Shown here in pieces: positions 3,926 to 58,779 of a stretch of DNA of 64,000 nucleotides. A program made the translations under genes and the position numbers. The number at the start of each line of letters is the position of its first letter. The first letter of the stretch is position 1. The DNA comes from Sanguibacter keddieii DSM 10542 (lineage in GTDB: Bacteria > Actinomycetota > Actinomycetes > Actinomycetales > Cellulomonadaceae): positions 2,542,001 through 2,606,000 of the forward strand of contig NC_013521.1 in the NCBI RefSeq assembly GCF_000024925.1. Direction: 5' to 3'. The notes under the pieces were generated by a model. It had not been told where the DNA came from. It searched no databases and was given only the letters and a program-made list of their open reading frames with translations.

Positions 3926-4390
3926 CTAGAACCTCAGACCGGGGATGATCTCCTCTGCCGTGTCGGAGTACCCGGCGACCTGCTCTGCCAGGTACGTCTC
4001 CCACGCGGCTGCGTCCCAGATCTCGACACGGGTACCCGCGCCGATCACCGCAACCTCCCGGTCGAGCCCTGCGTACTCACGCAGCGTCGACGGGATCGAG
4101 ATCCTCCCCTGCTTGTCCGGCATCTCGTCGCTGGCGCCGGAGAGGAACACACGCAGGTAGTCACGCGCCTGCTTGCTGGTCACCGGTGCCTGTCGGATCT
4201 GCTCGTACATGCGGCGGAACTCGTCCATCGGCAAGAGGAACAGGCAGCGTTCCTGACCACGAGTCATGACCAGCCCGGGGGCGAGCTGGCCGCGGAACTT
4301 CGCGGGGAGGAGCAACCGTCCCTTGTCGTCCAGACGAGGGGTGTACGTCCCGAGAAGCAGGCTGGGGGATGCACCGAACAGCTCTGACAC
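3926..4390 (-). CDS. mraZ: Transcriptional regulator MraZ
   Basis: DNA-binding regulator of the division/cell-wall cluster that represses its own promoter through direct repeats. The two SpoVT-AbrB halves are clear: DDKGRLLLP at about 21-29 and DKQGRISIP at about 92-100, in a 154-residue protein. An upstream ATG at 4474 would add 28 residues with no similarity to the family. I chose the GTG at 4390 because GGGGGAGG lies seven bases before it. The chosen protein keeps about 12 residues before the usual family start near [10 protein letters not shown]. Operator-like GTGGAG repeats lie in its leader and upstream. Confidence 0.95.
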
Positions 4391-4410
4391 TGCGGCACCT
4401 CCCCCTGCTG

Positions 4411-4446
4411 CTCCAAGTGGCTCCACCGTACTCCACTTCCCTCCAC
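4411..4446 (-). promoter_or_regulatory. MraZ-box cluster in the mraZ leader
   Basis: On the coding strand GTGGAG occurs at 4441-4446, 4431-4436 and 4421-4426, with a degenerate fourth copy (TTGGAG) at 4411-4416. All are spaced exactly 10 bp. Known MraZ operators are short G-rich direct repeats with a 10-bp period just upstream of mraZ, so this is the likely autoregulatory operator. The sequence shows the repeats; binding is inferred from the family. Confidence 0.8.
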
Positions 4447-4472
4447 CACGAGAGCGCGAACACAAAAACTTC

Positions 4473-4501
4473 ACCCTTGACGGGACATCGCCACAGGTCA
4501 G
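4473..4501 (-). promoter_or_regulatory. Candidate mraZ promoter
   Basis: CTGACC (4496-4501) and AAGGGT (4473-4478) are separated by 17 bp on the minus strand. They would place the transcription start near 4466, between two groups of GTGGAG boxes. The -10 match is weak, so this is one of several possibilities. Confidence 0.35.
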
Positions 4502-4505
4502 AGCG

Positions 4506-4530
4506 GTGGAGGAGAGTGGAGTGGGTGGAG
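4506..4530 (+). promoter_or_regulatory. GTGGAG box triplet upstream of mraZ
   Basis: Three GTGGAG hexamers at 4506, 4516 and 4525 lie on the plus strand, opposite in orientation to the leader cluster. They sit next to the candidate -35 of mraZ. They share their core with the leader boxes and the larger array at 4650-4783. Confidence 0.65.
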
Positions 4531-4649
4531 TGTCGCTCGGCCTGCCGAGGGGGCACGGCGGCGGACCACCTGGCTCGTGACCCTCGAGAACGACGTCAAA
4601 AGCCGCGGATCACCTCCCCCGGGCGTCGAGGAAGGCCGTCCGGCGCAGG

Positions 4650-4783
4650 GTGGAGAGAGGTGGAGGGTCGCTGTGGAGCGAGGTGGAGGGGCTCGGTGGA
4701 GCGAGGTGGAGGGGCACGTGGAGCGGGGTGGAGTGCCCTCGGGGAGCGGGGTGGAAGATCGCGCGGAGCAGGGTGGAGCACCC
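4650..4783 (+). repeat. Array of twelve GTGGAG-type boxes in about six 23-bp units
   Basis: GTGGAG or a one-base variant starts at 4650, 4660, 4673, 4683, 4696, 4706, 4718, 4728, 4741, 4751, 4763 and 4773. Spacings alternate between 10 bp and 12-13 bp, so pairs of boxes recur every 22-23 bp. The four leader boxes before mraZ share the hexamer and the 10-bp spacing. The array lies 260-390 bp upstream of the mraZ start, between it and the terminator of the DUF3040 gene, and encodes no convincing protein. An extended MraZ-binding platform is the natural inference. Confidence 0.75.
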
Positions 4784-4813
4784 CAGTAGCTCAGCCTCGC
4801 GCCGGCACGACGA

Positions 4814-4850
4814 AGCACGGGCTGGGCGCTGTGTGCGCCCAGCCCGTGCT
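4814..4850 (-). terminator. Terminator hairpin after the DUF3040 gene
   Basis: A perfect 16-bp stem (4814-4829 with 4835-4850) closes a 5-nt loop, 67 bp downstream of the DUF3040 stop codon. It separates that gene from the mraZ regulatory region. Confidence 0.85.
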
Positions 4851-4917
4851 GGAGTCGTGCGTCAGGGTGCCGCCGGTGGCTGGCGGAGGTGGGAGGCCAG
4901 ATGCCCGCCCGGTCGCG

Positions 4918-5325
4918 TCACTGCTCGTCTCGGCGCTTGTCCCACCGGTCTTCCATGCGCTGCATGAAGGGAGCCTTGCCGGACTTCCCGGTGCGCCTGG
5001 GCTTCTGCCCCTTGGCCGCTGGCGTGACCGAACCGTCGGCCGACACGACGCCCACGGGGCCGCTCTGCTTCGAGGGCTGGGCGAAGGCGTAGGCCACCGC
5101 GGAGAACATCACGACGAAGCCGATGACCCCCACGACGGGGAGAGACTGGGCGGCGCCGATCACGAGACCGAGGAGACCGACGACCAGGCCGACTCCCGCG
5201 ATGACGTACCGGACAGAAGACCGCTGGGACGTCGTCTTCATACTTGTCGCAAGGCGTGGATCATCAGACGTGAGCTCTCGCTCCATCTGCTCCAGAACAC
5301 GCTGCTCGTATTCGGACAGAGGCAT
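4918..5325 (-). CDS. DUF3040 family membrane protein
   Basis: Small actinobacterial protein of 135 residues and unknown function. It begins with the family hallmark PLSEYEQRVLEQME, a cytoplasmic amphipathic helix. Two membrane segments follow (about 39-57 and 63-82), then a basic C-terminal tail rich in Lys/Arg. Family members commonly sit just upstream of mraZ, as here. The ATG at 5325 is preceded by GGGGG; a -10-like TATCCT lies at 5368-5373 on the minus strand. It is a single-gene unit ended by the hairpin at 4814-4850. Confidence 0.88.
   Translation of the reverse strand: MPLSEYEQRVLEQMERELTSDDPRLATSMKTTSQRSSVRYVIAGVGLVVGLLGLVIGAAQSLPVVGVIGFVVMFSAVAYAFAQPSKQSGPVGVVSADGSVTPAAKGQKPRRTGKSGKAPFMQRMEDRWDKRRDEQ

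Positions 5326-58332: not shown

Positions 58333-58779
<447 letters not shown>

Follow-up and report, generated by a model that had tools for sequence, protein, structure and literature searches.

The window analysed here, a 64,000-nucleotide stretch of the Sanguibacter keddieii DSM 10542 genome, contains mraZ, whose product is the repressor of the division and cell-wall cluster. The gene lies on the minus strand alongside rsmH, and MraZ matches TIGR00242 (126.2 bits, cut-off 98.35; the translation used, from 4393, is one codon too long). Upstream, the mraZ intergenic region is bounded by a co-oriented DUF3040-like gene of the SCO2097 family (NF058603, 141.9 bits, cut-off 110). Nineteen GTGGAG boxes, 15 exact and four with one mismatch, lie between the two genes at 4411-4778. 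The features of the region are listed below.

3926-4390, minus strand: mraZ, with a GTG start at 4390-4388 as read from the sequence
4411-4446, minus (mraZ) strand: putative promoter operator, four direct boxes in 10-bp steps (exact GTGGAG at 4441-4446, 4431-4436 and 4421-4426, TTGGAG at 4411-4416)
4425-4430, minus strand: presumed -10 element TACGGT (TANNNT / TANNGT), overlapping the spacer between boxes 2 and 3 and the GT of box 3
4470-4500, minus strand: TGACCTG...GGGTGAA element, between the proximal operator and the promoter
4506-4530, plus strand: putative proximal inverted operator, with a conserved pair of boxes at 4506 and 4516 and an extra box at 4525
4650-4778, plus strand: putative distal inverted operator array, six pair units at 4650, 4673, 4696, 4718, 4741 and 4763
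4814-4850, no strand assigned: inverted repeat, perfect over 16 bp, with its arms 5 nt apart and lacking a T run, located between the array and the upstream gene
4918-5325, minus strand: upstream gene of the SCO2097 family

Packing of GTGGAG boxes upstream of mraZ

A scan for exact and one-mismatch boxes recovered the 19 boxes in three groups that the first-pass annotation had described. The 10-bp spacing that it gave for four boxes on the mraZ strand is exact, one of the four (TTGGAG at 4411) being degenerate, and its three opposite-strand boxes at 4506-4530 are found at 4506, 4516 and 4525, in steps of 10 and 9. The twelve distal boxes do form six pairs of 22-23-bp units, with unit steps of 23, 23, 22, 23 and 22, although three of the twelve are degenerate and the last box stops at 4778, not at 4783. 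Exact distal boxes begin at 4650, 4660, 4673, 4683, 4696, 4706, 4718, 4728 and 4773, and one-mismatch boxes at 4741, 4751 and 4763. Tandem Repeats Finder calls the distal array separately (4650-4778, period 23, 5.7 copies).

The hexamer GTGGAG is not enriched in the window as a whole (53 observed, 57.8 expected); what is unusual is its packing. The region 4394-4917 holds 15 exact boxes. First-order Markov resampling of this region (3000 resamples) gave 0.87 boxes on average and never more than 7, and the next densest 524-bp slice of the window holds three. When the genome, a single contig of 4,253,413 bases, was searched for the paired form GTGGAGN4GTGGAG, all seven matches fell in the array region upstream of mraZ. 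Resampling and the location of the pairs together rule out a chance cluster, in keeping with the annotation's view that the spacing is too regular for chance. It had also seen no coding use; the open frames over the array are mechanical, overlap one another and carry no sign of use, which rules out a protein-coding repeat. An RNA family was rejected as well, the sole Rfam match having an E value of 0.68 and 18.2 bits against a cut-off of 100.

The evidence from exact pairs is one of place and not of number, since the reversed pattern gives five matches in the S. keddieii genome. A search of 24 genomes gave 58 matches to the exact pair and 46 to the reversed control; of the 58, 47 are found no more than about 500 bp upstream of mraZ, five lie elsewhere and the other six belong to four genomes in which the mraZ position was not listed. 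The five pairs away from mraZ (G004, C9:9535 and C13:14347; G167, C1:2920858; G221, C1:1021775; G227, C7:33515) are possibly chance matches or possibly further MraZ targets. Allowing one mismatch in the pair gave 42 matches in the S. keddieii genome but 96 for the reversed pattern, and such a search therefore does not single out additional targets.

The four boxes at 4411-4446 had been placed in the mraZ leader; by sequence they appear to belong to the promoter itself. We infer that this group is the presumed core promoter, boxes 1 and 2 filling a 16-bp spacer between -35 and -10, because TA follows box 2 and TTGAC stands above box 1 across relatives. TA is found directly after box 2 in 95/95 deduplicated family loci, all of which also have the direct pair with no more than one mismatch; the search pattern used for the order set required TA at this place. 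TTGAC immediately 5' of box 1 was seen in 7/95 family loci and in 18 of the 65 order loci, which belong to other families. In S. keddieii the -35 position is poor (CTCGTG). A consensus promoter scan found no promoter, so the placement comes from alignment alone. The group lies at the presumed promoter of mraZ in the division cluster (mraZ, rsmH) and has the form of known MraZ operators, in which three or four direct repeats containing GTG follow one another every 10 bp (4411 TTGGAG, 4421, 4431, 4441).

Two further elements flank the boxes. TGACCTG...GGGTGAA is conserved at a constant distance from box 1 in an alignment of 74 family sequences, and could be an activator or second-regulator site where the -35 is poor. 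The inverted repeat at 4814-4850 is possibly a T-less terminator of the upstream gene; a consensus promoter and terminator scan found no T-run terminator. Elsewhere in the window, ten perfect CAGGCA copies at 58612-58671 lie within a plus-strand open frame of 148 codons (58333-58779), where they read as a stretch of Gln-Ala repeats.

Conservation of the inverted pairs among relatives

Named mraZ loci were taken from the best 80 of 552 relatives and from five other genomes of the genus, three being common to both. Among those best 80 the nearest named relatives in MraZ identity are three Sanguibacter species (89-95%) and S. hominis (79%). A family search found mraZ in 217/221 genomes, and among the matches listed 60 loci were taken besides 30 given as loci. 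The family set excludes window copies (L001-L007) and loci from genomes already present (L008, L090, L092); from 170 anchored loci, three repeats and 72 near-duplicates (72/167, by 8-mer overlap) were removed to leave 95. The order set of 70 loci lost two without an anchor and 3/68 without the promoter motif, leaving 65; it was not deduplicated, except for the unique-per-family count (44 values). In the class set one of 29 loci had no promoter motif, and 28 were scanned. Distal pairs were sought 160-420 bp above box 1 at a threshold of 14, with a weight matrix made from 158 family inverted pairs; since the family supplied these pairs, the order set offers the cleaner test.

The proximal inverted pair, which in S. 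keddieii stands 75 bp above box 1 with one extra box, is present with at most one mismatch in 83/95 family loci. It lies at 75-78 bp in 67 of them, at 97-99 bp in 15 and at 109 bp in one, the longer distances being about two or three turns beyond 75-78. The distal inverted pair scores in 64/95 family loci, against 0.2% (0.002) in shuffles and 1/95 in the opposite orientation. In other families of the order it scores in 47/65 loci (shuffles 0.9%, 0.009; opposite orientation 0/64), and at least one sampled locus has it in 13 of 18 such families. Only 4 of the 28 class-wide genomes have the pair, which thus belongs chiefly to the order. No pair reached the threshold in 31/95 family and 18/65 order loci, among them most Isoptericola and Cellulosimicrobium loci, and the distal site is therefore dispensable in some lineages. 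A locus titled Sphaerisporangium cinnabarinum (L040) is Cellulosimicrobium-like, with 87% MraZ identity to the query and the same layout; its title may be mislabelled.

In one genus (7.1-9.9 Mb genomes) the seven genomes sampled lack mraZ, and the pair is absent upstream of rsmH in all seven (best score 6.0, threshold 14). The pair is thus lost together with mraZ in 7/7 genomes, although, with only one genus sampled, this probably represents a single evolutionary event. In the same seven stretches upstream of rsmH (L277-L283) a promoter-like GTGGACTAAAGT is readable; judged by sequence, it resembles the mraZ promoter and may be a relic whose boxes have worn away.

A distal array not conserved in close relatives would have refuted the annotation's proposal, but all five other genus genomes examined carry one or more distal pairs. 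S. inulinus (G003), the closest relative, has two units 23 bp apart with one mismatch each, and the remaining four have one scored pair each; S. keddieii stands out within the genus by copy number, with six units. Among these units the box columns show 14/180 pairwise mismatches and the spacers 66/150 (column permutation p 0.002), so the boxes have been held and the spacers have drifted. Elsewhere the number of scored pairs per locus, where present, runs from 1 to 9, the nine being found in a genome of family f7 (G314) with some pairs 12 bp apart. Steps of 22-23 bp make up 23/47 of the inter-unit distances up to 60 bp, and steps of 32-35 bp 11/47. The 22-23-bp step was seen in families f1, f7, f11, f13, f15 and f17, recurring in five other families, and the 10/13 alternation is accordingly a recurring design rather than a one-off duplication accident. 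One distal region (L041) departs from the usual steps of 22-23 or 32-35 bp, its three perfect inverted pairs following one another every 17 bp.

Helical phasing of the distances

Across the family, the spacing between the proximal pair and the nearest distal pair is periodic (n=57, loci with more than two mismatches in the proximal pair left out), with a best period of 10.35 bp and R=0.678 (0/4000 nulls); with unique values (n=32) R is 0.523 (0/4000 nulls). The species are related, and the n values of the phasing tests overstate independence. The independent order set, evaluated at the phase predicted from the family and with 44 values unique per family, gave 3/20000 at 10.35 and 0/20000 at 10.5. 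The distal-to-box-1 distances taken all together (n=111) gave R=0.49 (0/1000 nulls). In sister-pair contrasts, a simple correction for relatedness (38/51 informative), the null reached the observed value in 16/20000. A 10-bp register produced by picking pairs out of longer chains was rejected as the cause: without the 8/111 sites that carry a third box the result is unchanged (R=0.47, 0/2000).

The signal has limits. Phasing is weaker for the pooled unique values of both sets (47/1000) and for the subset with the DUF3040 context, which is that of S. keddieii (11/1000). The best period differs by subset, from 10.25 to about 11.1, and is near 11 for the order set alone. Nor do the units of S. 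keddieii all fall in one phase, their distances to the proximal pair being 144, 167, 190, 212 and 257. Two properties of looping operators are nevertheless present: the same recognition sequence occurs away from the promoter, and its spacing is helically phased across relatives, weakly so in the pooled-unique and DUF3040 subsets.

A possible looping operator and its alternatives

The first-pass annotation had proposed a super-operator for the division cluster. Its boxes are concentrated at mraZ, conserved, two-directional and, as the looping that it suggested would predict, helix-phased, but the arrangement is not singular, the distal pair occurring in 13/18 other families; that earlier reading was largely right, and most of the architecture is common to the order. 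With its observed box anatomy, concentration at mraZ, conservation, orientation and phasing, the 4411-4778 feature is real, conserved and functional-looking, and its anatomy resembles that of a looping operator. That MraZ recognises the distal boxes in the first place we regard, judging from sequence, as very likely. Our preferred reading, to which we give a probability of about 0.6, is that a loop in phase with the DNA helix connects MraZ rings on the distal sites with those at the promoter and makes autorepression tighter.

In this proposal the whole of 4411-4778 would be a single MraZ operator system. A ring on the direct promoter boxes would block RNA polymerase, boxes 1 and 2 lying between -35 and -10 and box 3 over the -10. 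More MraZ would sit on the inverted pairs, both the proximal one at 75 bp and those of the distal array, about 220-330 bp upstream. We infer that bridging is possible because MraZ is a multi-subunit ring (relatives with solved structures exist, by sequence match): one ring, or two touching rings, would clasp distal and proximal DNA, free subunits being expected on the ring bound at the promoter. A short loop should form best when whole helical turns separate the sites, which would account for a spacing that varies in steps of about 10.5 bp. Compared with one or two distal units, six would increase the local occupancy by MraZ and provide several partners, and more units may strengthen repression of the division cluster or make it respond more steeply to the amount of MraZ. 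Extended to the whole order, the idea is that the ring staples a short helix-phased loop from distal pairs to promoter and that lineages set how strong the switch is by gaining or shedding 22-23-bp units, six of them in S. keddieii and nine scored pairs in the relative of family f7; this extension is tentative, and we put it at slightly under even odds.

The distal boxes might instead belong to the upstream gene, a divergent moxR or another transcript, with their proximity to mraZ being incidental. Of 160 loci, 116 have a divergent moxR as upstream neighbour, 36 a co-oriented DUF3040-like gene and eight another or unknown neighbour, and in some loci the distal pair lies within 60-80 bp of the approximate moxR start. 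However, the pair is found with every kind of neighbour: 79/116 loci with moxR, 29/36 with the DUF3040-like gene and no moxR (the S. keddieii layout) and 3/8 with others. Its distance from the approximate moxR start is spread from 24 to 540 bp and unphased (545/1000), and no phasing was detected between the moxR start and box 1 (169/1000; one of the 79 moxR loci left out of both tests) or between the distal pair and the DUF3040 stop (445/1000). By comparison, the nearest distal pair is within 290 bp of box 1 in 61/64 family and 45/47 order loci that have one (scan 160-420 bp). The confined distance to box 1, the spread of the moxR distance and the presence under any neighbour indicate that the pair goes with mraZ; an operator of moxR is rejected, and we consider an upstream-gene operator of any kind highly improbable.

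That confinement, together with the phased distance and the fixed orientation, also bears on whether MraZ binds the array and forms no loop, the array buffering or titrating MraZ or feeding the promoter through local concentration. A sponge of this sort needs none of the three, although it would allow the variation from 1 to 9 scored pairs and is compatible with the recurrence of arrays of 22-23-bp units; we think it unlikely. It is improbable that a DNA-binding protein other than MraZ reads the inverted boxes, which share hexamer and 10-bp step with the promoter boxes and are absent from the sampled mraZ-less genomes, even if the second conserved element, TGACCTG...GGGTGAA, beside the proximal pair suggests that other regulators may act here and MtrA binds an mraZ promoter fragment in Dietzia (PMC9602371). 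The array is a period-23 tandem repeat with a G-rich strand, as would be expected of a neutral repeat or of a DNA or RNA structure (G-quadruplex, leader RNA, small ORF), yet boxes far better kept than spacers, the same pair in the same orientation in other families, the single poor Rfam match and the mechanical open frames make this the remotest of the explanations considered.

Few bacterial regulators are as widely conserved as MraZ, yet no clear purpose is known for its ring shape. If the looping reading is true, a conserved, phased long-range operator would give the ring a concrete job, the bridging of DNA. Insertions of 5 bp should then break the loop and insertions of 10 bp should not, and distal sites would set division-cluster control in many Actinobacteria, where promoter-only studies would miss them. 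Among the matches listed for the open-licence literature, none describes distal or inverted MraZ operators by title or abstract, an absence that is not proof.

Control at an actinobacterial mraZ promoter has a parallel in Dietzia; there MtrA, a response regulator, acts on a 100-bp fragment, and the excerpt of that report describes no repeat array (PMC9602371). According to excerpts of the published accounts, the MraZ operators of Burkholderia cenocepacia, E. coli and Mollicutes resemble the present one in their GTG repeats, 10-bp step, toroidal MraZ and control of MraZ's own operon (PMC7761207, PMC8475190). The site described in one of these has four 7-nt repeats with 3-nt spacers, MraZ being a toroidal octamer, and in B. 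cenocepacia only one of two overlapping 250-bp probes was shifted by MraZ (PMC7761207); the Mollicutes operator consists of direct repeats of AAAGTG[T/G] (PMC8475190). Those operators, as excerpted, consist of a single cluster of direct repeats, three or four in number, to which S. keddieii adds two inverted groups, proximal and distal, extending to about 330 bp upstream with helix-phased spacing.

Auxiliary operators that loop, such as those of lac, gal, ara and lambda CI, are about 90-400 bp away and spaced in helical turns, with a multi-subunit repressor bridging the sites. The S. keddieii region is like them in having distant auxiliary sites, spacing in helical turns and a multi-subunit repressor, the bridging here being proposed. 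It differs from them in its multi-box groups, both direct and inverted, in the ring protein that would read them and in a number of distal units that depends on the species.
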